A stretch of 64,000 bases of DNA, taken from Tetracentron sinense. Taxonomy: Eukaryota; Streptophyta; Magnoliopsida; Trochodendrales; Trochodendraceae. Made by a program: the position numbers and the translations under genes. Positions 16,400-51,715 of the stretch are shown here, in pieces (the stretch's first letter is position 1; every line of letters starts with the position of its first letter). Under the pieces are notes generated by a model. The model ran no database searches, was not told the origin of the DNA, and saw nothing but the letters and a program-made list of their open reading frames with translations. The stretch is taken from assembly GCA_015143295.1 (NCBI GenBank), contig CM026564.1, positions 16,480,416 through 16,544,415 of the forward strand. The letters run 5' to 3'.

Positions 16400-16490
16400 T
16401 CCTTCCCCTTTATAAAAATTTCGTCCTCGAAATTTGAACGATATTGGCATTACAAAACCAAAACAAAATTACATGGTACCTACAAAACTC

Positions 16491-17158
16491 ATTCAAACAA
16501 CTCCGGATACTTTCCTTTAACTTTAGCCTCATGCTCCCATGTAGCCTCTTCCCGAGCATGATGTTGCCATTGCACGAGAACCAATGGGATAGTCTTGTTG
16601 CGAAGGACTTGATCTCTCTGATCCAATATATGAACCGACTTTTCAACCAAAGTGAGGTCCTCTTGGATTTCCATCGGTTCCAACTCTAAGACATTCGAAA
16701 GGTCCGCAATGTACTTCCGAAGCATAGACACGTGGAAAACGTTGTGAACCGCGACCATATGAGATGGAAGAGCTACCCAGTAAGCAACTTCACCAACTCG
16801 CGTGATAATCTCAAAGGGCTCGACATATCGAGGACTAAGCTTGCCTCTTCTGCCAAATCTCATAATTCCTTTGCTAGGAAATACTTTCACAAAGACTCGA
16901 TCCCCAACCTGGAATTCTAAGTCCCTGCGACGAGTGTCAGCATAGCTCTTTTGACGATCTTGAGCGGCTTTCAACCGATCCCGGACGATCTTAACCTTGT
17001 TCGCAGTTTGCTCTATCCAACTCAGGACCCAACACCTTTCTCTCCCATACCTCATCCTAGTAGAGAGGAGACCTGCAGCTTCGCCCATACAAAGCCTCAT
17101 ATGGTGCAATTTGGATGCTCGCCTGGTAGCTATTGTTGTAGGCGAATTCAACCAAAGG
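16491..17158 (-). pseudogene. TEK-2 integrase, C-terminal part with chromodomain-like end
   Basis: Reads [12 protein letters not shown] (about 17155), [28 protein letters not shown] (the GPY/F region follows as LSPRYVEPFEI), VFHVSMLRKYI and finally VLVQWQHHAREEATWE...KYPELFE at 16491. The last block is the chromodomain-like tail typical of Tekay/Del-type chromoviruses, thought to steer integration to marked chromatin. A frame change lies near 17060. The upstream half of the integrase is 4 kb away because LINE-F inserted here. Confidence 0.85.
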
Positions 17159-17166
17159 ATACTCGG

Positions 17167-17620
17167 ACTCATTTCTAGCCTCATTTATATATGCCTCCAC
17201 CATTGCTTTGGAGCGCCAAGCCCTTTGGATTGATCTGTCCTCACTTGGACCTAGTATGGAACCTTGGATTCTTTTGGGCAATTTCAACTTGGTGTGCTCC
17301 CAAAGGGAGAAACTTGGAGGCACTCCCTTCCAGCCAAACAGAGCTACTGAATTCCTTGACTGTTTGCTCCATAATGAAGTGTTTGATCTCAAAAGTACTG
17401 GCCTGTTCTACACTTGGAATAACTCTTCTCACTCTGGAAGCAACATAATCCAATGTAAGCTTGACAGGGTCTTAACTAATATCCATTGGTGCAGCAAGTA
17501 TGACGCCTCTGAAGCATCCTTTCTTCCTCACAGAATCTCTAATCATTCTCCTTTGTTGGCCACTATTAGACAGTACACTCCTGAAGGGAAAAAACCATTC
17601 AAATTCTTCAATTATTAGAC
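17167..17620 (+). pseudogene. LINE-F endonuclease, C-terminal half
   Basis: The frame from 17167 gives [20 protein letters not shown] and WILLGNFN at about 17265, where the GDFN aspartate has become asparagine. [20 protein letters not shown] and the NHSPLLA block (SDH-type motif, written SNHSP) follow at about 17400-17560, ending at a stop in KFFNY (17618). The D-to-N change alone would cripple the nuclease. Confidence 0.85.
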
Positions 17621-17645
17621 TAGACACCCAGAATTTAAGGCAACA

Positions 17646-19500
17646 GTGGCTGAATCTTGGCTTTCTCTTATCAGAGGCAACCCAATGTTTCGGCTCACTC
17701 AAAAATTACGTGCTCTGAAAGTTAAACTTCGCCTATGGAGTAAGGTTCATTTTGCTAATCTTTCCTCTCGTTCTGCAAATCTTAAAATCACCCTCAATGA
17801 TATCCAGGTCCAACATCACAACAACCCTCTTGATGACTCTCTTATAGCAGCTGAAAAGCAGATCCTTGCTGATTATTCTTCCGCTGCAAGCTACGAAGAA
17901 GCTACAATCAAGCAACAATCTCGGATTCAATGGCTCTCTCTTGGGGATTGTAATTCCAACTTCTTCTACAAAAGCCTCCTATCTCGTCGCAGCTTCAACA
18001 GAATCACCTCTATCTCTGTGCTTGATAATCGAATTGTGGATGAGAACGTTATAAAGTCTGAAGCTGTGAACTTCTTCAAGACTCTCTTATCAAAGCCCGA
18101 AAATGAATCCATCTTAGATCTCTCCAACCTCCCATCTCTCAGCCGGCTATCAAGTGTGGAAGGCCAGCAGATCATTTCTAAAATCTCAGAAGAGGAGATT
18201 AAATGGGCCATCTTTGATATGAAGGATGATAAATCCCCAGGACCCGATGGATACACAGCTTTGTTCTTCAAAGTGTGTTGGGATATTGTCAGTTCAGATG
18301 TGATAAAAGCTATTAAGAGCTTCTTGAGCTCTTCCAGTTTGCTCTCTGAATTAAACTCTACCTTCATCACCCTGATTCCTAAGGTGGCTTGTCCCAACTC
18401 CTCTGCTAATTTTCGTCCTATATCCTTGTGTAATGTTGTTTACAAATGCATATCAAAGATCCTTGCCAATCGCATCAAAAAGACTCTGCCCTCTATTGTG
18501 AGTGAGAACCAGGCTGCTTTCATCCATGGGCGAAAGATATCTGATAGTAGTATTCTCCTCACGCATGAATTAATTCGAAACTATCACAGAGACAAAGGAA
18601 AGCCTTGGTGTGCTATAAAGATTGACCTTCTTTAAGGCTTTTGACATTGTCCGATGGGACTTTTTGCTTAAGATGCTAGACCTGATGGGATTCCCAGACA
18701 CTTTTATCAACTGGATCACCCCATGTATCTCTTCTCCTAAATTCTCAGTTGTGCTAAATGGCTCCCCCGAGGGCTACTTCAACAGCTCCCGTGGTCTCTG
18801 GCAAGGCGACCCTCTCTCTCCCTTTTTATTTATCATAGCGATGGAGGGTTTCTCGGCTCTCCTAGATCAACTTTTTCACTCGGGCCACATCATGCCTCAT
18901 TTCAGGTGCGAGAACCCCTTAGGCTCTCATATCAGTTTTGCAGATGATCTATTTGTGTTTCTTTCAACAGAGCCAAATTCTGCCATTGGGCTACAAAGAG
19001 TTCTTAGTCGTTTTTCCTCCATATCTGGGCTCTCGCCAAATCCTTCTAAGAGTCAGATGTTCTTCGCTGGTACCTCTTTGCTCACCCAACAAGCTTTCAA
19101 AAATGTGCTGCAATTCAACATCGGCAAGCTTCCTGTCAAGTATCTAGGCCTGCCCCTCACCTCTAGACGTCTCTCGGCCTCGGACTGCCAACCACTTTTG
19201 GACAGGATGCTATCCAAAATAAATAGCCGGAAAGCCAATTGTCTCTCCCATGCTGGTAGAGCTGAACTCATCAAATCTGTACTCAATAGCATTCATATCT
19301 ACTGGGCTCGTCTTTTCCTCATTCCAAAAAAGATCCTCAAGCTCGTGGAGCAGCTCTGTAGTCGGTTCCTCTGGGCTGGTCAAGGCCTTTGGAAAAAAAT
19401 ACACCCTATAACTTGGAATAAGGTCTGCTGCACCAAAGAAGAAGGAGGGTTGGCTTTTGCAAACTCTCGGATTGGAACAGAGCTGGCATTCTTGGATTGA
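17646..19500 (+). pseudogene. LINE-F reverse transcriptase, one frameshift
   Basis: Two open frames overlap at 18622-18635. The first (17646-18635) holds QQSRIQWLSLGDCN, DKSPGPDGYTALFF, LIPKVACP, FRPISLCNVVYKCISK and NQAAFIHGRKI. The second (18622-19500) holds KAFDIVRWDFL, SRGLWQGDPLSPFLF, the catalytic FADD (about 18940), KYLGLPLTSRRLSASDCQPL and SHAGRAELIKSVLNS. A single extra base in the KIDLRKAF block near 18633 separates them. In the RQGDP motif R is W. Otherwise the 600-residue domain is nearly whole, so this copy may be younger than its neighbours. Confidence 0.92.
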
Positions 19501-19589
19501 TTTAGGACATTGCTTCTAACTCTCAAGGCCTTTGGGCTAAATGGTGCCACTCCAAGCTCATCAAAAGAAAAAATTTCTGGACTATGAAG

Positions 19590-20930
19590 ATCCCAGAAGA
19601 TTGCTCCTGGGTCTGGAGGAATATTCTCAAATTAAGGAACGTAGCTAAAGATCTCATCACTTTCTCCATTGCTAACGGTAACAACACATCTCTCTGGCTT
19701 GATCCATGGCATCCGATGGGCATCCTCATTGAAGTCTTCGGGAACAGAATTCAATATGACTTTGGCTGGCCTTAGATGCTAAAGTCTCTGACATCATTTC
19801 CAATTTAGAATGGGACCCCCTCCATCGGTCTCAATTGATTTACTGTCAGTTTGGAACGAGCTTCATAAAGTTACAATTAACAATGAGCTGGAGAACGACT
19901 GTATAATCTGGAAACCGCACAGCTCTGGATTGTATACTTTGCAATCTGCGGGGTCTAGCATCAGAACTATGGAGAATTCTATATGCTGGCATTCCTTAGT
20001 CTGGGGCTCCAACTACATCCCCCACCATTCTTTCATCTCTTGGTTAGCAATTTCTAACAGGTTGCTAACTCAAGACAAGCTCCAGAGCCTTAACGTTCTT
20101 CAGCAGTCCACATGCTTTTTCTATCGGGCCCATCCTGAAAACACTAAACACCTTTTTTTCGATTGCATCTTCACCAAGCAGATCTAGGAAGGCGTCCTTA
20201 ATCTGAGTTGCTACTCTAATAGAACTATTTTTAGCCTTTGAAGATGAAATAGCCTGGGCCTCCACAGACTTCAAGGGTAAATCTTTAATAAGCACCATCA
20301 ATCGGATTGCCCTGTGTGCGATTATCTACTTCGTATGGCAGGAAAGGAACAATCATATCTTCACCAACATTTACAAGCCCGTAGACCACATCTTCCACAA
20401 TATTTTGAGAGACACAAGAATGAAATTCTCTGCCCAAGACAATCCTGTTGAAGATACTGCAGCCAACCATGAAGTTTTAAGCCGTTGGAAAATCAAAGGA
20501 AACTTCTTTTTCAATTCTTCGATCTATTGCTCCTGGGTCCCCCCCCTCTCCATGACAAATGGCTTTTGAACTGTGACGGATCTGTTCAGCATTCCCTTCC
20601 AGGCTTTGGTGGCATTTTTCGAGATCATCTAGGTACCCCTCTTCTCGCCTTTACTAAAGGTTTGAATGATATTGATGTCTTGAAGATGGAACTTATGGCT
20701 ATCAACCGTGGCCTAGATCTTGCAAAAATCAATGGTCTCTCCAACTTTTCTATTGCTTCGGACTCTTTAAATGCTTCTCTCTATCTCTCTAAGAAAGGTC
20801 CCCCCTCCTTGGCATCTCCGAAACTTGGTGACATCCACTCTTAGAAAAATGGAAGATCTATATGTTCCTTTGGTGCAGCATGTCTAGCGAGAAACAAACA
20901 AGGCAGTAGATTATTTAGCAAACTTTTGTA
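19590..20930 (+). pseudogene. LINE-F zf-RVT region and RNase H
   Basis: WRNILKLRNVAKDLITFSIANGNNTSLW (from about 19615) is the linker. A stop near 19774 and a frame change precede DCIIWKPHSSGLYTLQSAGSS (about 19897). The zinc site is changed to CFFYRAHPENTKHLFFDC (second cysteine is Y). RNase H: LLNCDGSVQHSLPGFGGI (about 20565), LKMELMAINRGL (about 20682) and ASDSLNASLYL (about 20755); the final block RETNKAVDYLANFC lies at about 20890 after a stop at 20842. Confidence 0.85.
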
Positions 20931-21056
20931 CTTCCATATGCTCTACTGTTCTTTCTCCTTCTGATTTTCCTTTGGATTTGGTATCCCTTGTAGATACAGA
21001 AAAATCGGGATTCAAATATCTCCATATATAATTGGTTCTTTTGTGGTAATATATCT

Positions 21057-21085
21057 GGTAGGGGTCCGCCTAACCCCAGCTTACC
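21057..21085 (+). other. LINE-F 3'-end stem-loop, extended
   Basis: GGGGT (21061-21065) pairs with ACCCC (21073-21077), and the flanking GGTA (21057-21060) pairs with TACC (21082-21085) beyond a 4-nt bulge. Best preserved copy of the shared LINE tail hairpin. Confidence 0.6.
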
Positions 21086-21098
21086 GTCCAAAAAAAAA

Positions 21099-22060
21099 GA
21101 AGTGCTCTTCCCAACTGCCCTTGAAATCCAACATACATGCCCGAAGTATGTCTTCAATGATCTGGTTCACCCTCTCAGTTTGTTCATCCGTATGTGGATG
21201 AAAGGTGGTGCTGAAATCAAGTCGGGAACCCATGGCATCCTGAAAACTCTTCCAAAACCTAGACGTGAATCTTGGATCCCGATTTGACACAATACTGACT
21301 GGCTCCCCGTGTAACCATACCTCTTCCTTGATATACAGTGTGGCCAACTGGCTAAAATTGAAAGTAGTCCGGTAGGGTAAGAAATGTGCAGACTTCGTCA
21401 AACGATCCACTACTACTCATATTGTATCCGAGTTCCTTGTCGTCTTTGGCAACCCAACAATGAAGTCCATGGAAATGTGCTCCCATTTCCACTCGGGAAT
21501 AGGGAGAGACTGTAATAGACCCGCCGGTCTCAAGTGCTCTGCCTTCACCTATTGCCACACTAAGCACCGTGTCACGTATTCTGCCACATCTCTCTTCATA
21601 TTTCGTCACCAAAAATACCCCTTGAGGTTCCGGTACATCTTCGTACCCCCAGGATGCACTGTATACTTCGAACGGTGGGCTTTATCCATAATTTCCCACC
21701 GAAGATACGCATTGGCCGGAACACACAATCTTCCCCTGAATGTAATAGCACCTCGTCTGGTCAGAGAAAAATCTTCACTACCCTTGGCAACTTCCTTCTC
21801 CCGGAAAGCCAACAAGTCAGCATCCGAGGCTTGATACTCTTGGATCAAATCTATAATGTACGGTCGAACCGTGATGTTTGCCAAGACAGGACTGCGGACT
21901 GAATCATTCATACTACTAATGTCTAGATTTGCCAAATCTTCTAATAGTTTCCATTCCTGCACCAACATGTGAACCCACAAACCCGGAGGTCTCCAATTCA
22001 AAGCGTCTGCCACTACATTTGCTTTGCCCGGGTGGTATTCGATGGTGCATTCATAGTCTT
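21099..22060 (-). pseudogene. TEK-2 integrase, N-terminal and catalytic part
   Basis: Read downward: KFLKDYECTIEYHPGKANVVADAL (end of RNase H, about 22070), RGAITFRGRLCVPAN, AHRSKYTVHPGGTKMY (zinc-binding histidines) and, after a frame change near 21600, a damaged CLVCQQ block. The catalytic core reads [12 protein letters not shown] (about 21405), VSIVSNRDPRF (second catalytic aspartate kept, the preceding D is N) and DEQTERVNQIIED (catalytic glutamate). It ends at GSWEEH next to LINE-F. Confidence 0.85.
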
Positions 22061-22073
22061 TCAAAAATTTCAT

Positions 22074-23180
22074 TCAACGTCGTTGCCGTAAATTTAGCTT
22101 CTTTTGGGAGAAGAGGTACTTAAGGCTCTTGTGGTCTGTGAACAAATAGAACTCTTCCCCATAAAGGTAATGGCGCCAAATCTTGAGTGCAAATACGACT
22201 GCAGCAAGCTCTAGGTCGTGGGTTGGGTAATTTTTTTCATGCTCCTTTAATTGCCTTGATGCATAGGCAATGACCTTCTTATGCTGCATTAGGACACACC
22301 CAAGTCCAACGTGTGAGGCATCACTATACACCTCATACCCACCACATCCGGATAGTACCGTAAGGATGGGAGTCGTGGTAAGCTGCTTCTTCAGCTCCGT
22401 AAAACTGATCTCGCACTTATAGCTCCATACAAACTTGGTGTTCTTCCTTGTCAGGTAAGTGAGTGGTGCTGCAAGGCTGGAGAAACCTTCTACGAATCTC
22501 CTATAATAGTCTGCCAACCCAAGCAAACTGCGTATCTCTGTGACACTCTTGGTCTTGGGCCTCGCCCAACTCAAGACTGCCTCTATTTTCTTTGAATCCA
22601 CCGAGATGCCTTTTACGGAAACAACGTGGCCTAAGAATGCCACTTCTTCTAACCAAAACTCACACTTGCTTAATTTGGCTTATAACTTGTGCTCTCTTAG
22701 CATTTCCAAAGCAAGGCGAAGGTCTCACACGTGATCTTCCCGTGTCTGGGAATATATCAAGATGTCATCTACAAACACTATCACGCATCGATCCAGGTAT
22801 GGTCGGAACACCCGATTCATCAAATCCATAAAGGCTGCTGGCAAGTTCGTGAGACCAAAAGGCATCACCAAGAACTCGTAGTGTCCGTACCGAGTCCGGA
22901 ATGCCGTTTTGGGAACATTTTCAGCCTTGATCTTCAACTGGTGGTAACCCGACCAAAGATCAATCGTAGAGAAAATTCTCGCCCCCTTTAACTGATCGAA
23001 TAGGTCATCAATCCTAGGCAATGGATACCTATTCTTTATAGTGACCTTATTCAACTGCCTGTAATCAATGCACATCCGCATCGAGCCATCCTTCTTCTTA
23101 ACAAATAGCACCGGGGCACCCCACGATGAGACACTTGGTAGAATGAAACCAAGGCCTTACAATTTCTCCAACTAAGTCTT
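22074..23180 (-). pseudogene. TEK-2 reverse transcriptase and RNase H
   Basis: [24 protein letters not shown] (about 23110), [33 protein letters not shown] and the catalytic FVDDIL (about 22765). A stop lies near 22724. The second frame (22643-22074) has [19 protein letters not shown], then RNase [36 protein letters not shown] and [12 protein letters not shown]. Catalytic acids are kept in both domains. Makes DNA from genomic RNA in particles in a live element. Confidence 0.9.
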
Positions 23181-23665
23181 CTACTCCTTGAGTTCAATCG
23201 GAGTCATTCTGTACGAAGCCCGGAAGATGGGAGTTGTGCCTGGTGTAAGCTCGATCACAAATTCAATATCCCTGTCTGGAGGCAACCCTGGCAACTCCTC
23301 TAAAAATACATCCAGGAATTCACTCACGACCGGGATATTCGAAGAGTCATTTGCCTCAAGGTTCGCTAGGCTCAACGCCGCAAAGCGGGCGATGTCTTTA
23401 CTTCTCAACCTGCGAAAGTGAAATGGCTTCCCTTCCACCGGCTTGAATAGTACCATCTTCTTAAAGCAAGCTACATGCCCATGATGAGTTGCTAACTAAT
23501 TCATCCCCAATATAACGTCGAAGTCCTGGAATCCAAGGACAATGAGATTGATTGCTAATTCGTGGCTTCCCACCTGAACTGAGTAGCCTCTGAAAATGCT
23601 ATCTGTTACTACCGTCTTGCTGAGAGGAATCGAAATGAATAACTCCGGTTCCAATTGACTAGGCT
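23181..23665 (-). pseudogene. TEK-2 protease C-terminal part and protease-RT linker
   Basis: Starts next to LINE-G. The first codons match [11 protein letters not shown] of TEK-4, so the catalytic DTG is lost in the gap between TEK-2 halves. After a stop near 23457 the linker is open (23456-23181): [34 protein letters not shown] and [16 protein letters not shown]. Ordinary chromovirus spacing between protease and RT. Confidence 0.8.
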
Positions 23666-23839
23666 CCAATCTTCTGATCCTGCATGTCCCTGGTCCGCTT
23701 TGTTTGCTTCGAATAGAGTTAAAGCCAATGGCTTAACCCTAGAGTTCATCAAACCTCGTTCTGTTAAGGGAAAGAAGCTCATTTTATGCCCTTCATCTGA
23801 AATAGACGTAGATGCTGAGCGCTGGTCTGGAGCACTGGT
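23666..23839 (+). pseudogene. LINE-G part 1: ORF1 N-terminal fragment
   Basis: Plus-strand frame: CPWSALFASNRVKANGLTL, FIKPRSVKGKKLI and SSEIDVDAERWSGALV. This is the start of ORF1 in plant LINEs, just before the DUF4283 domain. It is cut on the right at 23840 by the TEK-3 LTR. LINE-G part 2 (from 45449) picks up later in ORF1, after the missing half of DUF4283. Confidence 0.75.
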
Positions 23840-27006: not shown

Positions 27007-28387
27007 TTATATACAAAATATATTAAGCAGGAAACAATTGAAGATGATTGCGTCTGATGGCATCCTCCAGTTCCCAAGTAGCTTCTTCAATACTGTGATG
27101 TTGCCATAATACTTTAACCAGCTAGATTGACTTATTCCGTAACACCTGTTCCTTGTGGTCCAATATTTGCATTGGCTTTTCCTCAAAAGACAAGTCTTCT
27201 TGAACTTGAAGTGGTTCATACCGAATCACATGCGAAGGATCAGGTATATATTTCCTTAGCATGGATATGTGAAACACATGGTGAACCCTCTCTAACTCTG
27301 GTGGCAACGCCAGACGATATGCTACAGCCCTCACCTTAGCCAAAATTTCAAAAGGTCCAATGAATCGCGGACTTAACTTCCCCCGCTTTCCAAATCGAAT
27401 AATGCCTTTTGATGGAGAGATCTTCAAGAAGACATGGTCGTCGACTTGAAATTCCAAGTCTCGACGCTTTCCATCTGCGTAGCTCTTCTGACGACTCTGT
27501 GCAGCCAATAACCTGGATCGAATCAACTCGATTTTTTCCATTGTTTCCTGTACCAGTTCAGGTCCCAGTCGCTTATGCTCTCCTACTTCAGTCCAACATA
27601 CCGGAGACCGACAGCTCCGACCATACAAGGCCTCATACGGAGCCATTTGAATACTTGCCTGATAACTATTGTTATATGCAAACTCGATCAACGGCAAATG
27701 ATCATCCCAGCTACCATGAAAGTCCAGACTGCAAGTGCGCATCATATCTTCTAGAGTTTGTATCGTGCACTCGGACTGTCCGTCGATTTGCGGATGATAA
27801 GCTGTATTCATGTTTAGCTGCGTACCCAAAGCTTCCTGTAAGCTCCTCCAAAATCAGGAAGTAAATTACGGATCGCGATCTGACACAATAGATACTGGCA
27901 CACCATGCAGCTTCACAATCTCCTTGATGTACAACTTTGATAAATGTTCCAGGGTTATGGTATCCTTGATAGCGAGAAAGTGAGCTGACTTTGTCAATCG
28001 ATCAACTATCACCCAAACGGCATCGTGTCCACTCCTTGTTTTTGGTAACCCCACCACAAAATCCATTGTAATGTGTTCCCATTTCCACTCGGGGGTAGGC
28101 AATGAATTTAACAATCCAGGTGGTTTCTGATGTTCTGCCTTGACTTGTTGAAAAACAAGGCATCGATATACATACTCTGCAATTTATCTTTTCATGCCAT
28201 TCCACCAGTAGTTATTCTTCATATCCTGATACATCTTCGTACTTCCAGGGTGCACCGCAAAACGAGATCGATGTGCGCCTCATTGAGCAGTTCATTTTTC
28301 AACTCAGGGTTTCCAGGCACACAGATTCGTCCTTTGAATGAAAGTATTCCATCTTTAGATTCTTCAAAATCACCCATTTTTCCTTAA
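27007..28387 (-). pseudogene. TEK-3 unit 1 integrase with chromodomain-like end
   Basis: Read downward: KGRICVPGN, zinc-binding region with a damaged start (28387-28120), then [18 protein letters not shown] (first catalytic D, about 28080), [12 protein letters not shown] and VSIVSDRDP (second D, about 27870). The frame changes at 27865. Next come NMNTAYHPQIDGQSE (catalytic E), [37 protein letters not shown] and VFHISMLRKYIPDPS. A stop near 27122 precedes LVKVLWQHHSIEEATWE, the chromodomain-like tail. Only two or three lesions break the whole integrase. Confidence 0.9.
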
Positions 28388-28392
28388 AGAAT

Positions 28393-29760
28393 CTAATCTC
28401 TGATAACTTTGATCTCCTGATCTTCCAACTGTGCTTCTTGAATCTTTTGTAACAACACTGGCTTGGCCTGAATACTAGCCAACTTGGCACTATTACCGTG
28501 GAATCCTAGACTCAGATTCCAACTCTTGAATTCTTCGATCACCTTCCATCGCTCTGCCCTCATATATGCTACAGATCCAACTGTCTTTCTACTCAGGGTA
28601 TCAGCAACCACATTACCCTTACTAGGATGATACTGGATTACATAGTCATAATCTTTCAAGAATTCCATCCATCTACACACAACATATTGAGTTCCTTTTG
28701 GGAGAATAGATACTTTAAACGCTTGTGATCACTATAGATCATCAACTTCTCTCCATAAAGATAATGCCTCCAAATTTTTAGTGCGAACATTACTGCAGCT
28801 AACTCCAGGTCATGCGTGGGATAATTCCGTTCGTGAATCTTGAGTTGTCTCGAACCATAAGCAATGACCCTTTTGTTTTGAATTAGACACAACCGAGTCC
28901 CTTACCGGAAGCATCACAATACACCTCAAGTCCTCCAGATCCTGAGGGAGTTGCCAATACTGGAGCGGTTGTTAATCTCTTCTTTAATTCTTGAAAACTT
29001 CGCTCCCGAGATGCCGTCCATTCGAACTTCACATCTTTCTTAGTCAATTCCGTTAATGGAGTTGCTATCTTCGAGAAACCTTCTACAAATCTGCGGTAGT
29101 ATCCAGCCAATCCCAAAAAACTTCGAACTTCAGTAACAGTGGATGGCCTTGCCCAATCGGTTACCGCCTGAATCTTGGAGGGATCAACAGATATTCCATT
29201 CCTTAACACAATATGCCCAAGGAAGGCTACCTCTTCCATCCAAAACTCGCACTTGGAGAACTTAGCATATAGCTGATTATCTCTTAATGTCTATAGCGTA
29301 ATCCTCAAGTGCTCAGCATGCTTCTCACGACTAGGTGAATACACCAAGATATCATCAATAAATACCACAATAAATTGATCCAAGTATGGCCTGAAAAGGC
29401 GATTCATCAATTCCATAAAGGCCGCAGGTGCATTTGTCAGTCCAAAAGGCATCACCAGGAACTCGTAGTGACCATACCGAGTTCGGAATGCTATCTTTTG
29501 AATATCTTCTTCTTTGATCCTCAATTGGTGATAGCCGGACCGTAAATTAATCTTTGAAAACACTTGGGCGCCTTGCAACTGATCAAATAGATCATCAATC
29601 CTGGGGAGAGGATACTTATTCTTGATCGTCGCTTGATTCAGCAGACGAGATAGTCTATACATAGACGCAGACTCCCGTCTTTCTTTTGGAAAAATAACAC
29701 CTGTGCTCCCCACAGTGAAACACTAGGGCGGATCAAACCCTTATCTAATAGGTCTTGCAA
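28393..29760 (-). pseudogene. TEK-3 unit 1 reverse transcriptase and RNase H
   Basis: RT open from 29713: [52 protein letters not shown] and catalytic FIDDIL (about 29355). A stop near 29290 and a frame change follow. Then [29 protein letters not shown] and RNase [13 protein letters not shown] (about 28925), [21 protein letters not shown] and [12 protein letters not shown], then [27 protein letters not shown] to 28393. The family-beta protein differs clearly from family alpha, e.g. FIDD in place of FVDD. Confidence 0.9.
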
Positions 29761-31397
29761 CTAAATCTTTAGTTCTTGCAACTCAGCTGGAGCCATCCGA
29801 TACGGTGTTTTAGATATCGAGACTACACCCGGAGTAATATCGATTGTAAAATCGATTTCTCTAGTAGGAGGGAGTCCTGGTAATTCATTAGGAAACACAT
29901 CTGGGGTATTCCCTAAAGTGTCATCTTTATCTTTATCGACCACCACTGTTGCTAAATATCCAGTACACCCCTTATCTAGAAGGTGACATGCTTTAATTGC
30001 TGATATTAGTTTGGGTGCTTGACTTCGGATAATCCCCTACATTGCGAACTTTGGGATGTCCGGAATTCGAAATATCACTTTCTTGGCATTAAAATCTACC
30101 ATTGCATAGTAATTGGCCAACCAATCCATCAAAGGGATAACATCATAATCCTTTAGGTCTAACACGATCAGATCTACTAACATCTGTACACTATTGGTAA
30201 GTATGGGACAACTATCATAGACTGTTTTTGTGCACAAAACTTTCCCTGATGGTGTAGATATAGACATCATGCTTTTGAGTGTATCAGGCTTGTAACTTAT
30301 GTGTCTAGCAAAACGAGTTGAGATAAACGAATGTGTAGCACCAGTATCAATAAATGCATATGTAGGCTTTTGAAAAATTAGCAATTTACCTTCAATAACA
30401 CCTTCGGCCTGCTGAGCTTTCTCTTGCGTGATAGCGAAAACTCGACCTTTCCTGCCCTCCAGGGCTAGTGGCTTCGATTGAGGGCAGTCTCTCTTGAAGT
30501 GGCCAAGCCTTCCACACTGAAAACAACCTTGTCCTCTGCAATCCTTAGTCAAGTGAGCTTGCCCACACTTGGCACATTTTGGTCCAGATCCTCCTATAGA
30601 TACTTGGCCCTTCACATCATCAAATTTTCTTTTTCTAGCGAACCGATTGGTGTTGTTCTTTTTGTCCCAGGACTTCCCCAGCTGGTCCTTTATTCTTCCC
30701 TAGAGTTGAGGGAAGCATTTTCTCGTGCACTCGCTCCACTTGGAGCGCTCTGTCTAAAAGCTCAGAAAACACAGTAAATCGTTGGGCTGCCAACTTTCCC
30801 TTAATTGGTGGCTTTAAACCTTCCTCAAACTTTTCAACTCTCCACTACTCATCCTCCACAAACTTCGCGGCAAATCTCGAGAGTTTATTGTATCTTTAAA
30901 CCTTCCTCACTCACGGTCATGTTTCCCTGAGTTAATTGAAGAAACTCTATCTCCTTCTTCTTCTTCATCGAGGCAGAGAAATACCTCTCATAAAATAACT
31001 CTACAAACTTTGCCCAAGTCACGGGCCTCTGATTAGGTAAGATTGTTCGTTCCACTGTTGTCCACCAGTGCTCGGCCTCCCCTTCAAGCATGATTAAAGC
31101 AAATTCCGACTGCGCGTTCTCGGGTAATGCTATAGCCCGGAAGATCTTTTCCAATCCCTTAATCCAGTTCTCCGCCTTCAGCGGATTTGTGGACCCTGAG
31201 AAAGCTGACGGTCCAAGTCTTTTGAATTTCTCAAGTCTTGTCGCATGCCCATGTTCTAGTATGGTAGCGATAGGACGACTACCATTGCCATTTCCATTTT
31301 TATTTTGGGTTTGTTGTTGTTGAATTAAATTAGCTAGAGTCGAGATGGCTTCAAAGGCTCTGGCCAAAGTATTCTCAGGTGCTCTCCGAGGTGGCAT
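29761..31397 (-). pseudogene. TEK-3 unit 1 gag and protease
   Basis: Gag capsid part is open at 31397-30885 from MPPRRAPENT: RFKRLGPSAFSGSTNPLKAE, EGEAEHWWTTV and FYERYFSASMKKKKE. A damaged stretch (30884-30616) follows. The next frame (30615-30037) has two zinc knuckles, C-x2-C-x3-H-x4-C at residues 14-26 and C-x2-C-x4-H-x4-C at 31-44, and runs without a break into the protease with DTGATHSF (catalytic D at about 30348). Gag and protease are thus in one frame, with no intron between them, unlike family alpha. The linker to RT ends at 29761 with one stop near 29763. Confidence 0.88.
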
Positions 31398-32138
31398 GGT
31401 TTTCCTCTAATTATACTATAGTAAACGCTTTATAAATGTAATGAAATAAAAAGAAATGTACTCAAGAGTTCAATAGTCAAAAAGAAACATTTCATTCATT
31501 TCATTACTAAGATACACAAGGCAACACTGTACAGTATAGTAGTACACCAGCGTATACAAAACATCTTGTAGCTGTACACATACAAAAAGTGATCTCATGA
31601 TGGAAAGACCGATTAGGGCATCTATTATACTCCAAAAAGCCAAAACGATACAGATGCACCACGCTCTTTCCCTATGATCCTATACTCCGTAAGTCCCAAC
31701 CTCTATCGGTGAGACTGCTACACTATCCTCCCGCGGTGCTTGGTCCTCTGTCTCAGGTCTAGCCTCTCCCAATACCCAATCAATATCAGGGATTCGTGCA
31801 TTGCTCGTGCGATCAATCCCTTGAGGAGTGATTGTACCGCCTTTAGGTGTACAGTGCGGTAAGATGACCATCCAGCATGACGTTTTCTTTGCATGGTCAC
31901 CGCCCACTCAAACAGAGCTATCTCCCTCTTTGTGGGAATTCTGTGCGTCCTCGCCATTCCTGCACATGCACATGTTCTAAATCAATGTCTGATTTCGAAA
32001 CATGACATGTACAACAATCACTCAACTAGGAATATCGAATTAATCTCTAAGGGATGATCGCCTATCCAACGGTTCTTAGGTGTGTTATGCTCAAGTATGA
32101 TTTGTGTGATGGTTATTGCTATTGGCTCTGATACCAAT
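31398..32138 (-). other. TEK-3 leader and primer-binding site
   Basis: The 741-bp leader between LTR and gag. The primer-binding site lies at 32123-32136 on the minus strand, TGGTATCAGAGCCA, a perfect match to the 3' end of initiator-Met tRNA as known in plant retrotransposons, two bases from the LTR end. No convincing coding region; short open frames such as 31680-31907 look accidental. Confidence 0.85.
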
Positions 32139-36614: not shown

Positions 36615-39023
36615 TGTAGAGCCCCGGAACTTTTTGCCATGTATTGGGACCCGTGCCAAGGCATGAAGCCTTTGTAATCTTCCATTTCTATGAAATGAGA
36701 AATTTTGAACAACTCTAAGTTTTATGAAGTAGTATTCCTAAGTCGAATATTTCGAAAACCCGAGTTACTGAAACCCATTTACGGATCAGTCGACTTCAGG
36801 GGTAATTTAGTCAATAAATAAAGGAGAAATTGGAAATTCTAAAATACTAGAAATGTCCCCCTTCGAAAGACGAATCCAATGCAAGTTGAATCGTCAAAAT
36901 CGGGCAACCGAGTCAAAAGTTATGGTCGAATTACCAAAGTATGGAAAAATAGGAGAAAAACAACAAAATCTGAAGGGTGCGATCGATCGCAAGTTAGGTG
37001 CGATCGATCGCATGCAGGCAAAATGGGTCCCAAACTCTCGGGGCCATATGCGATAGATGGATCCCCAGGTGCGATAGATCGTAGGGATCTGCGATCGATC
37101 GCAAGATTGTGCGATCGATCGCATGCAAAGGGAAATCAGACCAGAAATGTTCGGATTCAGGCGCGATAGATCGCATCCAAGTGCGATCGATCGCAAGGAC
37201 CTGCGATCGATCGCAGATAAGTGTGTGATCGATCGCATGCGGTAGCAGATTCCGGATTTGAGGGTCTTAAACCCTTTTCTTGTTAGGGATCCTCATTTTG
37301 GGGCATTTCTAACCTAGAGGAGAGAAAAGGGGAGAAAGAGGAAGAGTGGATTTGTAGGAAATCCTCCAAGGAGCTTGGATTGAGAGATCAAAGGGAGTTC
37401 AAGCTTGGGAAATTACAAGCAAGGGGCTTCCCCAAAGCATCACGAGTTCTCCATACCCAAGTGGGAGTTCTTCCTCAAGTTGGAATCCACATCAAGAGTG
37501 TTATTCAACCCCAAATCAAGGTCGGTACCTTATACTACCCTTCTAGTTCATCTCTACTCTTTATTTTCCTTCATTTTATGATTTTCCCTAATTTCTAAAC
37601 AAGATAAGGAAATGGGATGAATGGATGGTTGTGTGGACGTTTATGGGCGATTGGATGCCGTGTATGTGTTGTGATGATTAAAATGGGAAGGGCATTTCAC
37701 CTCAATAATGAACATACATGATGTGGATTGAATGAAGAATGATTCAAGTAGAATAAAATGAAAGATTTAGGTGTTAACCAAAAAAAAAAATACATATACC
37801 ATATGTTTGATGAAATGCCTCAATGGAGAAAATGATGATTTATAGTGGAAATTGCATGTTTAAATGTTTATGGAATTGCTAAGGCTTATGATAGTGTGCT
37901 TAAGTGTCTTCCCTAAAATTTGAATGAATGATTACTTGCTCAAATTTTGATGTTCTATGTATTGTGAAATCCCCAAAAGTCATATTTAATTTCAAATGAA
38001 AGAATGTACACGATTCCACGAGCACGACATGCATGACATGGTTTATCGGTATTTTCAAGAACAAGGTTTAGAGTTAGGACATATCCTATGATGTGTTTTA
38101 CCTCGCTTTTGACAAGAGGACAAGAACAAGCATTTCTTAGGGGGGAGTTTACACTTCCCTTCCTTCTATGAGGGGTCTCCCCTCACTCACAAGTGCATTG
38201 CATTAAAGAATGGTCTTTCATCCCTCTCAAGGCATATCACGAAAGAAGGGCCTCCCTTCCCTCTCAAGGCATCTCACAAGTACATGAGCATGTTGAACTT
38301 CCAAGCAAGCATGCATGACAAGCATGGTACACGCATGACACGCATGATACAAGCATGACACGACATGACAAAACAAGATACATGGCAAGACGAGTTTTAA
38401 AGCACGAAACGAGAATTTTAAGTCAAATCAAGGGCACGATGTTTTCAAGAGATTTATCAGTTTTTATGAAATGCAAGCATGAATATAAACTGTGTTATTT
38501 TTGTTATGATATGAATCACTTCCTGTCTTATATTGTATTTGCTATGCTATGGCTGTTTGTTAGTGTTTGGTACCCGCTGAGTATTCCATGCTCAGCCGTA
38601 CTTCTTATATCGGCAGGTGATAGTGGGTCAGCTGCTCCTTTTGATGTCTGTGCTCCCGGCCCATGGGTGGAGGAGGAGTACGCTTAGGAGCCTATGGAGG
38701 AACCTCAGGGCGAGGGCTACTATTAGGTTGTGGTAGATACTGAATGGTTAGCTGTGGGTGAGATGAGAGTATATCCATGTATTTTGGCGGGCATGTCCGC
38801 ACTTTTTTTTGCGTATCTTTTTGTTCAAACTTGGATCATGTATATACATAGAGGTTTGAATTGTCTTCCGCTGTGCTATGTTAGAATATCTTTCCGCTGT
38901 TTATATCCTGTTTGTATATGCTCTGTGGGTTTTTGCAGGATGGTTTGTCAAGTAAGTCGTGTAAGCCATGATTAGTCGTCCAAAGTTCACTCTAACTCCT
39001 AGGGTGGGTTTTGGGTCGCGACA
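36615..39023 (+). repeat. TEK-4 5' LTR (family alpha, 2409 bp)
   Basis: TGTAGAGCCCC to GGTCGCGACA. Contains a palindrome array at 36978-37237, GC hairpins at 38170-38184 and 38245-38259, and a conserved block ending in cactctaactcctagggtgg. The region 37260-38160 has no recognisable content besides AT-rich LTR sequence. Confidence 0.93.
36978..37237 (+). promoter_or_regulatory. U3 palindrome array, TGCGATCGATCGCA type, ten sites
   Basis: Sites begin at 36978, 36999, 37049, 37070, 37090, 37110, 37162, 37182, 37202 and 37224. Steps are 21, 50, 21, 20, 20, 52, 20, 20 and 22 bp, close to two or five turns of B-DNA. Six are perfect 14-bp palindromes; the others differ mainly by C to A or T (GCGATAGAT). 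Function unknown; binding of a dimeric protein on one face of the helix is a guess. Confidence 0.6.
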
Positions 39024-39027
39024 GAAG

Positions 39028-39040
39028 TGGTATCAGAGCT
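39028..39040 (+). other. TEK-4 primer-binding site
   Basis: TGGTATCAGAGCT, four bases after the LTR, complementary to initiator-Met tRNA. Starts minus-strand DNA synthesis in live elements. The leader from here to 39363 shows nothing else. Confidence 0.88.
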
Positions 39041-39363: not shown

Positions 39364-40509
39364 ATGAGGGCACGGGGTCGCGGACCACACACTAGGGCTT
39401 CATCTTCTTCTCGAGATGAGGGTGAGCAGTCGGACTTCTCTCAGGTTCTCGGCTCTATTGCAGAGACTTTAGCCTTATTGGTGGCTAGGCAGGCTACTTC
39501 ATCGTCTGCATCACCTACTCCACCGCCTGTGGCTCCAATACATCGTACAACTGGGGTTGAGGCATTCAGGAGATTGAGGCCTCCATCATTCCATGGGAGT
39601 GTGGACCCTCTTGCCGCGGAGGAATGGATTCTCCAAGTGGAGAAAATATTTGCGGTTCTCTCGCCGACAGAGGAAGAAAAAGTGGCATGGGTAGTTTTCA
39701 TGACTGAGGGTGAGGCACACCATTGGTGGTTGTCCGTCTTGAGGACTCGAGACTTGACTATGCAAGGTCAACCTTGGACTTGGGATGAGTTCAAGGATAC
39801 TTTCTATAAGAAGTATTTTTCGGTCGGAGTGCTGAAAAAGAAAGAGAAAGAGTTCATCAACCTAGAGCAACGTTCGATGACTATGACCGCTTATAAGGCT
39901 AAGTTCTTGGAACTATCACGCTTCGCAACTCACATGGTTGCCACCGAGGCAATGAAGGCGAGAAGGTTTGAGCAAGGGCTCAAGGACGTGATCATGGAGA
40001 AGCTCTCGGTTTTCAGACATGCTACCTACCCTGAGGTAGTAAAAAAGGCCTTATTGGTCGAGGCCAATTCAGAGATCGTGTCCAAGAAGAGGGAATTGGT
40101 GAGAGGCCAATCTAGTAGTTCAGCAACTCCGGAGAGGCGGGCCCGGACTGGTCCTTATCAGTATACGTGGCCAGCACCACCGATGAGGCCATCTTATGCA
40201 CCTCCAGTTCCACGGCCGTTCATGCCTCAGGCGCCACGACCTCAGGCTCTTCCGGCTCCACGGCTTGTTGCACCTCAAGTAGCGAGGTATGCTCCACCTC
40301 CGGCCCCTCCGACTTACACGTATGAGGCTTGCACTTCGTGTGGCAAGAGGCACCCAGCAAGAGATTGCCGAAGGACATCGGGTGGATGTTTCCATTGCGG
40401 TCGACAGGGCCACGTGATCAGGGATTGCCCTAGCCGACATTTACCAAGCCAGTCTCAAGGTATTAGGCCGCCAGCTTGTCCAGCAGGATCTTACCAGGCA
40501 TCCTCCTAG
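39364..40509 (+). CDS. TEK-4 gag, open reading frame ended by a TAG
   Basis: Starts at the ATG at 39364 (MRARGRGPHTRASSSSRDE); an earlier in-frame ATG at 39286 lies in leader sequence and is less likely. Capsid motifs: RLRPPSFHGSVDPLAAEEW, EGEAHHWWLSVL and FYKKYFSVGVLKKKEKEF. A proline-rich stretch is followed by two zinc knuckles, CTSCGKRHPARDC and CFHCGRQGHVIRDC (about 40333-40428). The frame stops at TAG 40507 and again at TGA 40552, but continues after them with VFVLTEDDALASDDVVQ to 40605. TEK-2 has a readable codon at the second place (GRVFALTE), so these stops look like C-to-T decay. Forms the particle shell and binds RNA. Confidence 0.88.
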   Translation: MRARGRGPHTRASSSSRDEGEQSDFSQVLGSIAETLALLVARQATSSSASPTPPPVAPIHRTTGVEAFRRLRPPSFHGSVDPLAAEEWILQVEKIFAVLSPTEEEKVAWVVFMTEGEAHHWWLSVLRTRDLTMQGQPWTWDEFKDTFYKKYFSVGVLKKKEKEFINLEQRSMTMTAYKAKFLELSRFATHMVATEAMKARRFEQGLKDVIMEKLSVFRHATYPEVVKKALLVEANSEIVSKKRELVRGQSSSSATPERRARTGPYQYTWPAPPMRPSYAPPVPRPFMPQAPRPQALPAPRLVAPQVARYAPPPAPPTYTYEACTSCGKRHPARDCRRTSGGCFHCGRQGHVIRDCPSRHLPSQSQGIRPPACPAGSYQASS

Positions 40510-40606
40510 CCTACCCAGTCTACACCTACATCTCACCAGGTGAACCAGGGGTGAGTTTTTGTCTTGACAGAGGATGATGCACTTGCATCTGATGATGTGG
40601 TGCAAG

Positions 40607-40749
40607 GTACGCGTTTAGAGTTATTCTTTTATCCATGATTGTCATGTCGTGCCTAATTCTTTGTGTATGTATATGACATGTTATATATCTGTATATCTAT
40701 ATGTATATGCTGTTGATGCATGGATTGACTTAGCTAGTTAAAATTTCAG
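40607..40749 (+). other. Candidate spliceosomal intron between gag and protease
   Basis: 143 nt, AT-rich, starting G|GTACGC and ending TTTCAG|GA. Upstream codons end DDVVQ plus one base; downstream bases complete a glycine codon and continue [21 protein letters not shown]. The joined frame matches the Gag-protease junction of TEK-3 (VIEGKLLIF...FIDTGATHSF), which has no such insert. Unspliced RNA would stop at TGA 40636, ten codons in. TEK-2 has the same 5' splice site at 50526. No transcript data, so splicing is inferred. Confidence 0.65.
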
Positions 40750-41970
40750 GAACCATACTAGTCAATGAGTGTTTAGCTCGTGTGTTGATCGATACCGGGT
40801 ATACGCATTCATTTTTCTCACCGAGCTTTTCTCAAGGCTTCTCTACAGAGCTTAGTCAATTGGAACCGGAGTTGTTCATTTCGACTCCTCTCGGCAAAAC
40901 AGTGGTGACAGATAGCGTTTTCAAAGGCAGTGTGGTCCAAGTGGGAAGCCATGAATTGGCAGTCGACCTCATCGTCCTCGGATTCCAGGACTTTGACGTT
41001 ATCTTGTGGATGGATTGGCTAGCAGCTCATCATGGGCATGTAGCTTGCTTCGAGAAAATGGTCCTCTTCAGGCCGGTGGAAGGGAAGCCATTCCATTTTC
41101 GGGGGTTGAGAAGTAGAGTTATCGCTCACTTTGCGGCACTAAGCTTAGCGAACCCTGAGGCAAAGGACTCTTCGACTATTCCAGTCGTGAGTGAATTCCT
41201 GGAGGTATTTCTAGAGGAGTTGCCAGGGTTGCCTCCAGACAGGGAGATTGAGTTTGTGATCGAGCTTGCACCAGGCTCAGCTCCTATATTCAGGGCTCCG
41301 TATAGAATGGCCCCGATTGAACTCAAGGAGTTGAAAATTCAGTTGGAGGAATTGCAAAGCCTTGGTTTTATTAGACCGAGTGTCTCACCGTGGGGTGCCC
41401 CGGTGTTATTTGTTAAGAAGAAGGACGGCTCGATGCGGATGTGCGTCGATTACCGACCGTTGAACAAGGTCACTATAAAGAATAGGTATCCATTGCCTAG
41501 GATTGATGACTTATTCGACCAGTTAAAGGGGAGCGAGGTTTTTCTCTAATATCAATCTTCGGTCGGGTTATATCACCAGTTAAAGATTAAGGTGGAAGAT
41601 ATTTCCAAAACGGCTTTCAGGACTCGGTACGGACACTACGAGTTCTTGGTGATGCCTTTTGGTCTCACGAATGCACCGGCAGCCTTTATGGACTTGATGA
41701 ATCGGGTGTTTAGACCATACTTGGACAAGTGCGTGATTGTGTTCGTTGACGATATTTTGGTATATTCCCAGACACGGGAAGATCACGCGCGAGACCTTCA
41801 CCTTGCGTTGGAAATGCTGAGAGAGCACAAGCTGTACGCCAAACTTAGCAAGTGTGAGTTTTGGTTGGAAGAGGTGGCATTCCTAGGTCACGTCGTATCC
41901 GCGGAGGGCATTTCGGTAGATTCGAAAAAGATAGAGGCAGTCGTGAATTGGGCAAGGCCCAAGAGTGTCA
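40750..41970 (+). pseudogene. TEK-4 protease and reverse transcriptase
   Basis: Protease: [16 protein letters not shown] (catalytic D at about 40791) and [13 protein letters not shown] (about 41000). The linker [20 protein letters not shown] leads into RT with [25 protein letters not shown] and [14 protein letters not shown] shift or short deletion at 41549-41590 interrupts it in the SGYHQL block. The second frame has [20 protein letters not shown] and catalytic FVDDIL (about 41750), [13 protein letters not shown] and [10 protein letters not shown]. Confidence 0.9.
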
Positions 41971-42459
41971 CAGAGATACGCAGTTTCCTTGAGTTGGCAG
42001 GCTATTACCGGAGATTCGTAGAGGGTTTCTCTAGCCTTACTGCACAGCTCACTTACCTGACAAGGAAGAATGTGAAATTTGTATGGAGTGATAAGTGTGA
42101 GGTCAGTTTCACGGAACTGAAGAAGAGGCTTACCACAGCTCCTGTCCTTACAGTGCCATCCGGACATGGTGGTTATGAGGTGTACAGTGATGCCTCGCAT
42201 GTTGGACTTGGGTGTATGCTCATGTAACACAAGAAAGTCATTGCCTATGCATCGAGGCAATTGAAAGAGCATGAAAAGAATTACCCCACACACGACTTGG
42301 AACTTGCTGCAGTCGTGTTTGCACTCAAGATTTGGCGACACTACCTTTACGGGGTAGAATTCTATGTGTATATGGATCACAAGAGCCTCAAGTATCTCTT
42401 TTCCAAAAAAGAGCTAAATCTAAGGCAACGGCGTTAGATGAAATTTTTGAAGGACTATG
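41971..42459 (+). pseudogene. TEK-4 RNase H, then deletion junction
   Basis: [15 protein letters not shown] is followed by a stop at 42225 where TEK-2 has a glutamine. Then [40 protein letters not shown] and [11 protein letters not shown] (the usual FTDHK aspartate is kept). The frame ends in MKFLKDYV, beyond which the sequence jumps into the 3' LTR at about 42460. The whole integrase is missing. Confidence 0.85.
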
Positions 42460-43449
42460 TGTACACGATTCCACGAGCACGGCGTGTATGACATGGTTTA
42501 TCGGTATTTTCAAGAACAAGGTTTAGATGTGGAACATATCCTATGATATGTTTTACCTCGCTTTAGACAAAAGGACAAGAACAAGCATTTCTTAGGAGGG
42601 AGTTTACACTTCCCTCCCTTCCATGAGGGGTCTCCCTTCACTCACAAGTGCATTGCATTAAAGAAGGGTCTCCCATCCCTCTCAAGGCATATCACGAAAG
42701 AAGGGCCTCCCTTCCCTCTCAAGGCATCTCACAAGCGCATCTCACAAGTACATGAGCATGTTGAACTCCCAAGCAAGTGCGCATGACAAGCATGGTACAC
42801 GCATGATACAAGCATGACATGCATGACACGACATGACAAAACAAGATACATGGCAAGACGAGTTTTAAAGCACGAAACGAGAATTTTAAGTCAAGTCAAG
42901 GGCACGATGTTTTCAAAAGATTTATCGGTTTTTATGAAATGCAAGCATGAATATAAACTGTATTATTTTTGTTATGATATGAATCGCTTCCTGTCTTATA
43001 TTGTATTTGTTATGTTATGGTTGTTTGTTAGTGTTTGGTACCTGCTGAGTATTCCATGCTCAGTCGTACTTCTTATGTCAACAGGTAATAGTGGGGCAGC
43101 TGCTCCTTTTGATGTCTGTGCTCCCGGCCCATGGGTGGAGGAGGACTACGCTGAGGAGCCTATGGAGGAACCTAAGGGCGAGGGCTAGGTGAGATGAGAG
43201 TATATCCATGTATTTTGGCGGGCATGTCCGCACTTTCTTTTGCGTATCTTTTTGTTCAAACTTGGATCATGTATATACATAGAGGTTTGAATTGTCTTCT
43301 GCTGTGCTATGTTAGAATATGTTTCCGCTGTTTATATCCTCTTTGTATATGCTCTGTGGGTTTTTGCAGGATGGTTTGTCAAGCAAGTCGTGTAAGATTA
43401 GTCATCCAAAGTTCACTCTAACTCCTAGGGTGGGTTTTGGGTCGCGACA
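42460..43449 (+). repeat. TEK-4 3' LTR, last 990 bp
   Basis: Matches 38005-39023 of the 5' LTR from tgtacacgattcc onward. A few small indels separate the two, including loss of a segment after gagggctag near 43187. Ends GGTCGCGACA, followed by the GATGT target repeat. Confidence 0.9.
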
Positions 43450-47000: not shown

Positions 47001-47009
47001 CACGGAAAT

Positions 47010-50395: not shown

Positions 50396-50420
50396 AGCTT
50401 ACCTTCCAAAAAAAAAAAAA

Positions 50421-50526
50421 CATCATATGTATAGATATATAGATATAAGTAACACGCCATGTATGTACACAAAGAATAAGGCATAACATGATAATCGTGG
50501 ATAATTAAATAACTTTAAATGTGTAC
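50421..50526 (-). other. TEK-2 remnant of the gag-protease intron
   Basis: On the minus strand the exon ends GTGCAAG at 50527 and the next bases are GTACAC, the same 5' splice site as TEK-4. About 106 nt of intron remain before LINE-G; the 3' splice site is lost. The exon upstream is open here as NQGRVFALTEGDAL...DDVVQ, without the TGA stop of TEK-4. A stop occurs in the retained intron, so unspliced RNA would end Gag here as well. Confidence 0.6.
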
Positions 50527-50527
50527 C

Positions 50528-51715
50528 TTGCACTACATCATCAAATGTAAGTGCATCACCCTCTGTCAAGGCAAATACTCGCCCCTGGTTTGCTGGGCGT
50601 GCTGGGGTCCTAATGCCCTAAGACTGGCCTGGCAAATCCCGACTAGGGCAATCCCTGATCACATGGCCCTGGTGACCACAATGGAAACATCCACCCGATG
50701 CCCTTCGGTATTCTCTTGCAGTGTGCCTTCGGCCGCATGAAGTGCAGACCTCGTGTGTATAGGTCGAAGGGGCCAGAGGTGGAGCATACCTCGCCACCTG
50801 AGGTGCAACTGGCCGTGGAGCTAGAAGAGCCTGAGGTCGTGGTGCCTGAGGCATGTACGGTCATGGAACTGGAGGCGCATAAGATGGCCTCATCTGTGGT
50901 GCTGGCCAAGTGTACTGGTAAGGGCCGGTCTGAGCCCGCCTCTCTGGAGGTGTTGAACTGCTAGGTTGGCCTCTCGTCAAGTCTCTCTTCTTGGACACGG
51001 CCTCTGAATTGGCCTCGATCAATAAGGCCTTGTCTACTACCTCAGGATAGGTAGCATGCCTGAAAGCCGAGACTTTCTCCATAATGACATCCTTGAGCCC
51101 TTGCTCAAATTTTCTCGCCTTCATCGCCTCGGTGGCGATCATATGAGTCACAAAGCGTGATAGCTCCGAGAACGTGGTCTCATAAGCGGCCACAAACATC
51201 GAACCTTGCTCAAGGTTGATGAATTCCCTCTTTCTTTTCCCGTGCTCCAATCGGAAAGTATTTCTTATAAAAAGTATCCTTGAACTCTTCCTAACTCCAG
51301 GGTTGACCCTGCACGGTCAAATCTTGCGTCCTCAAGGCAGACAACCACCAATGGTGTGCCTTACCTTCTAGCATGAAAACAATCCATGCTACTCTATCCT
51401 CCTCTGTGGGTGAGAGGACCACAAATATCTTCTCCAACTGGAGAATCCATGCCTCTGTAGCAAGAGGGTCCACACTCCCATGGAATGATGGAAGCCTCAG
51501 TCTCCAAAATGCCTCAACTCCAGTGATACAATGTATAGGAGCTGCGGGCAGTGGAGTAGGTGCCACTGATGATGATATAGTCTGTCGAGCTGCCAGTATG
51601 GCGACTGTCTCAGCAATAGAGCCTAAGAAATGAGAGAGGTTCGGCTGCTCATCCTCATCTCGTGAAGAAGAGGAAGTTCTGGTGTGGTCCACGACCCCGT
51701 GTGCCTTGCCTTATG
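50528..51715 (-). pseudogene. TEK-2 gag
   Basis: Read downward: RTSSSSRDEDEQPNL (about 51680), VEAFWRLRLPSFHGSVDPLATE, EGKAHHWWLSALR, then a frameshift around 51250-51290, KREFINLEQGSMFVAAYE, and the zinc knuckles CTSCGRRHTAREY (last cysteine changed to Y) and CFHCGHQGHVIRDC at about 50660-50745. The start methionine of TEK-4 gag is ATA here, so it has lost its start. Close relative of TEK-4 gag, not of TEK-3. Confidence 0.88.

Follow-up and report, generated by a model that had tools for sequence, protein, structure and literature searches.

The subject of this work is a 143-nucleotide (nt) insert at the junction of Gag and protease in a long terminal repeat (LTR) retrotransposon of the plant Tetracentron sinense. 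The element, here called copy 1, lies on the + strand of a 64,000-nt stretch of contig CM026564.1 (positions 16,480,416 to 16,544,415), which was analysed as a whole and is referred to as the window. As judged from DNA, the insert is very probably a spliceosomal GT-AG intron that is partly removed, and the spliced RNA would now and then be reverse-transcribed into empty copies, devoid of exactly the insert.

Copy 1 and the insert at its Gag/protease junction

Copy 1 is a Ty3/gypsy element in which Pfam profiles recognize Gag with a zinc knuckle, protease, and reverse transcriptase (RT)/RNase H, in that order and on the + strand, as are all features of this section. Its 5' LTR (38006..39023, with TGTACA...GACA ends) and 3' LTR (42461..43449) share 89.7% identity. 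The primer binding site, TGGTATCAGAGC (39028..39039), lies 4 nt past the LTR end and is one that we take to be of the tRNA-Met type. Most chromoviruses are primed by tRNA-Met (PMC6317226). From its sequence, the family of copy 1 is here called a chromovirus.

The upstream exon, coding for Gag, extends over 39364..40606 (PF03732, E 2.2e-16, and PF00098, E 8.5e-5, on 39364-40509), with the zinc knuckle at about 40384-40434; its frame is broken by in-frame stops at 40507 and 40552, upstream of the insert. The downstream exon (40750..41549) holds protease and the start of RT (RVP_2, PF08284, E 1.6e-28 on 40734-41549) in a frame open from 40734, and the remainder of RT/RNase H follows at 41550..42460 (RVT_1, E 7.2e-23, and RT_RNaseH_2, E 1.4e-9, on 41550-42227). 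RNase H, ending at 42460, directly abuts the 3' LTR, which starts at 42461, and there is neither an integrase nor a chromodomain nor a polypurine tract between them. The element is not flanked by a target-site duplication (AAGAA before, GATGT after). Copy 1 is an old, damaged and internally deleted element, perhaps also recombinant in origin. A search of NCBIfam profiles gave no match, and a tRNA scan found none.

The insert itself (40607..40749), proposed to be a phase 1 spliceosomal intron, begins with GTACGC, finishes with TTTCAG and has 31% GC (44% T), against 49% and 44% GC in its flanks. It had been picked out in an original prediction, made from the letters of the stretch, as an AT-rich GT...AG segment of this length and position, and this is borne out. 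The features of a spliceosomal GT-AG intron are present, namely GT...AG ends, a branch site and an AU-rich body of plausible length. Indeed, a 5' splice-site-like AAG/GTACGC (40604..40612) opens the insert, a branch-point-like TTGAC (40725..40729), one of three YTRAY matches within the insert, has its A 21 nt ahead of the 3' end, and a 3' splice-site-like ...TTTCAG/G (40735..40750) closes it. Scored with plant splice-site frequencies, the donor falls in the top 0.44% of the 6566 GTs and the acceptor in the top 0.62% of the 8198 AGs on both strands of the window, and each is the best locally. The cut splits a Gly codon (G/GA, phase 1), so that the predicted placing of the insert between codons was wrong, and AGG is repeated at both borders. 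An origin of the insert as a small transposon was considered and rejected, since a search for inverted repeats in 40560-40800 found one 12-nt palindrome only.

Distribution of the insert and of copies that lack it

The genome searched is that of the plant itself (1.16 Gb). The insert is found in 30/30 aligned loci, which are those nearest to copy 1 (copy 1 included) from 40 scored of 5061 candidates; GT is kept in 29/30 and AG in 30/30, and lengths run from 141 to 150 nt. A donor-side pattern matched 2182 places and an acceptor-side pattern 3520 (at most 3 mismatches), with 0 matches for the reversed controls. Since the insert recurs in all 30 loci, in a second copy in the window (copy 2, described below) and in thousands of matches to both of its ends, it is not a chance feature.

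Over 56 copies, the length of the insert ranges from 135 to 155 nt, with 33, 13 and 10 copies in the three frame classes. In the alignment, the insert is rich in gap columns (26/164, against 0/222 and 6/248 in the flanks); because of these lengths and gaps, the insert looks non-coding. A YTRAY motif stands 12-40 nt ahead of its end in 56/56 copies, and TTGAC is found in 48/56. Read without splicing, the Gag frame comes to a stop within the insert in all 30 aligned copies, at 12 different distances, the commonest being codon 44 (12 copies) and codon 10 (5 copies) of about 47. The predicted stop at 40636 with the insert left in does exist in copy 1, where those at 40507 and 40552 come earlier; it is not family-wide, being shared by 5/30 copies, copy 1 included.

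The strongest support for an intron comes from family members that occur at several points in the tree of copies and are without precisely the GT...AG segment. Two 35-nt patterns for the empty junction matched 43 and 48 places (at most 3 mismatches; 48 with degenerate positions), an exact 25-nt pattern matched 36, and the reversed controls matched 0. In 32/32 empty copies (32 of the 43 places, located by the exact-junction pattern), 0 nt stand between Gag and protease, precisely at the predicted GT/AG cut.

The tree draws on 95 loci, of which 30 are nearest to copy 1, 21 came from the exact donor pattern, 12 are like copy 2 (itself included) and 32 came from the empty pattern; the sampling is uneven, with 40591-40625 fixed in the donor-pattern rows and the junction fixed in the empty rows. 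Two of the 95 (L084 and L087) have no usable Gag-protease pair, and five of the other 93 were left out (L038, the same place as L017, and the short L058, L071, L088 and L090). On the tree of the 88 copies, built with the insert excluded, its presence or absence changes 7 times (7-9 across bootstrap trees), and the starred branches force at least 5 changes. A single clade of empty copies is rejected, whether all columns are used (log-likelihood, lnL, -371) or those up to 250 nt (lnL -149) or 150 nt (lnL -90, p 0.002) from the junction. The largest empty group (19 copies) is nested among insert-bearing copies, and a 12-copy subset of it is nested too when a protease-RT tree is rooted with three outgroup rows; there its sister is the insert-bearing L091 (100/96). 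Moreover, the empty copy L063 has insert-bearing copies as its nearest in 8/8 windows around the junction. Recombination among family members is apparent from the sequences; L061 is a mosaic whose stretch from about -200 to +100 belongs with the empty group, and L045/L046 also seem to combine different clades near the junction. At least two independent losses of the intron are likely, their number being uncertain because of this recombination.

Several relatives lie in the window. Copy 2, on the - strand, has this insert too, but only its initial ~107 nt (50420..50526), broken off there at a poly-T junction by a stretch resembling a long interspersed nuclear element (LINE), a label that rests on open reading frames and the poly-T junction; its Gag (50527..51707, -; DNA about 79% identical) has stops and a frame break. 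Copy C (16489..23666, -; 85% identical to copy 1 across 1618 nt) belongs to the family of copy 1 and runs from protease to a chromodomain-like end, with a LINE-like stretch inside and the Gag/protease junction missing. It matches SH3_Tf2-1 (83.8 bits, E 9.1e-24) and, under the curated cut-off of 25.1, Chromo (21.2 bits, E 2.7e-4), the chromodomain region being gone from copy 1. The LINE-like stretches are on the + strand, at about 17142-20844 (in copy C) and 46961-50419 (ending in the insert of copy 2). A 176-bp tandem repeat occupies 34001-34564, with three copies listed, the other two being 88-89% like the first.

A related chromovirus family without the insert is present at 27122..31406 (-), its junction continuous at 30390. 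The comparison with intron-less relatives that had been suggested came out in favour of the intron, as this element (31406-27122, minus) and L001 are both continuous and read through the insert site. L001, a chromovirus-like contig in a bacterial assembly, is one of three loci found in contigs of bacterial and archaeal genomes; L002 starts within protease, and L003, a more distant relative, has Gag and Pol as two overlapping frames. Their source assemblies (Labilibacter sediminis, Streptomyces clavifer and a Streptosporangiaceae metagenome-assembled genome, respectively) are bacterial, and these contigs are probably eukaryotic contamination. Viral contigs gave no relative, and a Gag query of the protein database gave 1 match (a Gag-like protein) among 7992 scored candidates.

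Proposed splicing of the insert and its alternatives

The intron is well supported by the DNA, through its many copies, its varying lengths and its intron-less relatives. In the mechanism that we propose, one plant chromovirus family would have gained a GT-AG intron within the conserved Gag/protease junction, and the removal of this intron would be partial. Unspliced RNA, retaining the intron, would be the usual template of reverse transcription, because intron-bearing copies are so many, and could be translated only into Gag with a short variable tail. Spliced RNA would fuse Gag to protease-RT in frame and is likely the Gag-Pol message; since exact empty copies exist, it would also at times have been the template, being occasionally packaged and reverse-transcribed into DNA copies without the intron, one of which would have founded an intron-less lineage. 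We infer from these copies that splicing caused the empty junctions and, if both RNA forms existed, that it was partial. It may plausibly set the ratio of Gag to Gag-Pol as well. The wider idea, that one small intron runs the life cycle, with unspliced RNA as genome and Gag message, spliced RNA for Gag-Pol, and a leak between the two pools by which spliced RNA repeatedly returns to DNA and founds intron-less, now more intact lineages with a fused Gag-Pol frame, is put forward tentatively, its chances lying just below even.

Two insert-bearing clades (13 and 28 copies) provide evidence on Pol. Changes fixed between them (at ≥80%) number 5, 3 and 20 by codon position in Gag (107 sites each) and 9, 7 and 37 in protease-RT (146 sites each), third positions thus taking 20/28 and 37/53 of the changes. 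This third-position bias suggests that elements bearing the insert made Pol and kept it under selection, for which splicing would be the simplest route. Distances in the insert track those of the flanking sequence (r 0.61 against the adjacent protease side; 0/500 permutations as high).

Several observations weigh against a partly spliced intron with repeated losses. Between the same clades, the insert is clade-fixed by letter at 1/143 positions at 80%, fewer than third codon positions, and at 70%, with gaps counted, 9/175 tested positions are clade-fixed, all 9 in the insert; so few clade-fixed changes are unexpected of a freely drifting intron. By conservation, GT ranks 54 and AG ranks 35 of 142 insert dinucleotides (35 copies, not picked by pattern), in a test that is weak because the copies are decayed; the original prediction had looked to GT and AG staying while the body drifts, and as the two are no better conserved than the body, this check did not discriminate. 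The bootstrap of the 88-copy tree is not fully settled, and the base of the rooted tree holds both empty and insert-bearing copies, so that either state may be ancestral; in that tree the outgroup L001 stands on a long branch and F2 has an odd base make-up. L063, the best single case of independent loss, is not significant by itself, since the 150 nt next to the junction do not reject its placement in the large empty group (p 0.157), and recombination may have spread some of the empty junctions.

Few clade-fixed differences, relative to flanking third codon positions, are found over the end of Gag (40540-40590) and most of the insert (40626-40749). The low clade divergence of both could possibly reflect constraint at the RNA level or exchange between clades.

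A real intron might have no regulatory job and be a tolerated passenger, its loss neutral or beneficial. This overlaps with the partly spliced intron favoured here, and is a serious possibility, if somewhat short of an even chance; the elements would obtain enough Gag-Pol from the spliced fraction, or borrow Pol from intron-less relatives. Within 180 codons on each side, 12/32 intron-less copies are stop-free as against 2/56 insert-bearing copies (0/28 among those not chosen by likeness to copy 1), in a count where frames are read on through indels and a frame-shifting indel may register as stops; this speaks for a passenger and against an essential role. So do the shorter end branches of intron-less copies (median 0.033, compared with 0.042 at p 0.044 and with 0.046 at p 0.004) and the stop of unspliced Gag, which is at no fixed place. 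Because intron-less copies, though fewer, are more often stop-free, the intron is apparently dispensable for propagation. An intron-less frame as the normal state of intact members had been named beforehand as evidence against an intron, and it was found in part, in the greater intactness of these copies but not in their number. Indeed, insert-bearing places (2182 or 3520) far outnumber the empty ones (43-48), which a mere passenger would not lead one to expect, and neither would the few clade-specific changes retained in the insert. The third-position bias in protease-RT between insert-bearing clades is a further point against it, and makes mere borrowing of Pol unlikely.

It is improbable that the insert is a non-coding DNA segment other than an intron, inserted once, with the empty copies as an older, never-invaded state scattered by recombination. 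The outgroup families without the insert, the empty copies near the root and mosaics such as L061 agree with such a history, but the largest empty group lies deep among insert-bearing copies, even the columns no further than 150 nt from the junction reject a single empty clade, and L063 is closest to insert-bearing copies in all its junction windows. Moreover, borders of the form AAG/GT...TTGAC...CAG/G are improbable by chance, and Pol, though showing selection, would have no evident translation route if the insert stayed. Still less probable is that the insert was lost through a deletion of DNA between the AGG triplets repeated at its two borders. A 3-nt repeat is a poor guide, yet all 32 empty copies, found as they were by the exact-junction pattern, are exact, and 20 of the 21 places sampled with the donor pattern keep a full-size insert, the remaining one (L084) being without its protease side. 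A junction pattern shifted by 6 nt gave 17 matches, all of them the exact junction at 2-3 mismatches and 0 shifted, a control that is weak because the two patterns differ in 2 letters.

Translation of the insert, followed close to its 3' end by +1 ribosomal frameshifting into protease, is scarcely credible: the Gag frame is open for 44 codons, to just short of the insert end, in 12/30 copies, and a GCT AGT T-like site near that end presumably resembles the Ty3 frameshift site, but an open frame that long arises in 18% of shuffles, insert lengths fall in all three frame classes with gap columns common, the supposed slip site varies among copies while TTGAC and YAG are mostly kept, the RNA structure of copy 1 is not beyond chance (z 0.31), and exact empty copies are left unexplained. 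A programmed Gag/Pol frameshift was rejected, there being no fixed frame relation, conserved site or structure.

Comparison with known retrotransposon introns

Plant LTR retrotransposons are generally without introns, and a 2025 review names Ogre and EVADE as exceptions (PMC12786077). In Ogre (Tat lineage of Ty3/gypsy), a partly spliced intron is found between protease and RT, and splicing permits the full polyprotein (PMC6317226). The family described here is similar in that, within the coding region of a plant Ty3/gypsy element, two reading frames would be parted by an intron that is removed in part. It differs in that Ogre is not a chromovirus and has its intron after protease, with 274 bp on average between frames, whereas the insert here precedes protease and measures about 142 nt, which is not the Ogre-type position. 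The original prediction rightly placed the Ogre intron elsewhere (PMC6317226), but left out BARE and EVD (Copia) and CRR, which are also spliced. Bianca (Ty1/copia) has two frames 172 bp apart on average, for which the authors suggested a special expression strategy; it is a Copia element, and in the accessible text splicing is reported for Ogre only, most other plant groups having a single frame (PMC6317226).

BARE1 of barley (Ty1/copia) possesses a 104-nt, U-rich, facultative GT...AG intron at the Gag/protease border (PMC3735527), and the likeness lies in this kind of intron at this border. Its logic is the reverse, since in BARE1 the frame is open through Gag-Pol when the RNA is unspliced, and splicing gives Gag only. 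Splicing also yields short Gag-only RNAs in EVD/ATCOPIA93 (PMC12786077) and short Gag RNAs among sunflower Copia isoforms (PMC7730604); in both, early termination or a premature stop leads to the short Gag RNA, and the full-length transcript to Gag-Pol. In contrast to this BARE/EVD type, the unspliced Gag frame here ends within the insert in 30/30 copies.

A further case is CRR, which we take to be the rice centromeric chromovirus. It is likewise a Gypsy element with spliced transcripts; splicing is also noted for Ogre and for env RNA in Bagy2-like elements (PMC3735527). The difference is that splicing in CRR takes out RT and makes two frames, and so does not concern a small intron at the Gag/protease border (PMC3735527). 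The accessible parts of PMC3605345, PMC11963269 and PMC2533021 make no mention of a chromovirus intron at the Gag/protease site, and no report of one was found in titles, abstract openings and selected passages of the open-access literature, subscription papers being mostly outside this scope. Retrotransposon introns are already known in Ogre, BARE, EVD and CRR; the Gag/protease position in a chromovirus is apparently new, none having been found reported.

How LTR retrotransposons with a single coding unit manage to produce Gag in excess of Pol, and how particles exclude spliced RNA, are open questions. Since one genome offers many copies with the insert beside dozens that lack exactly this segment, both become approachable from genomes and RNA reads. 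If the insert is indeed a partly spliced intron, a new intron position is added; if it also runs the life cycle, a step between two expression strategies would become visible. Copies of spliced BARE RNA were not amplifiable from barley DNA (PMC3735527); unlike that report, the present family would indicate, from its DNA, that the spliced RNA of a retrotransposon can enter particles, undergo reverse transcription and succeed. In the intron-tagged Ty experiment of 1985, loss of the intron on retrotransposition proved the RNA intermediate (PMC12786077). The intron was artificial there and is natural here, and the family could thus serve as a natural and repeated version of the intron-loss experiment.

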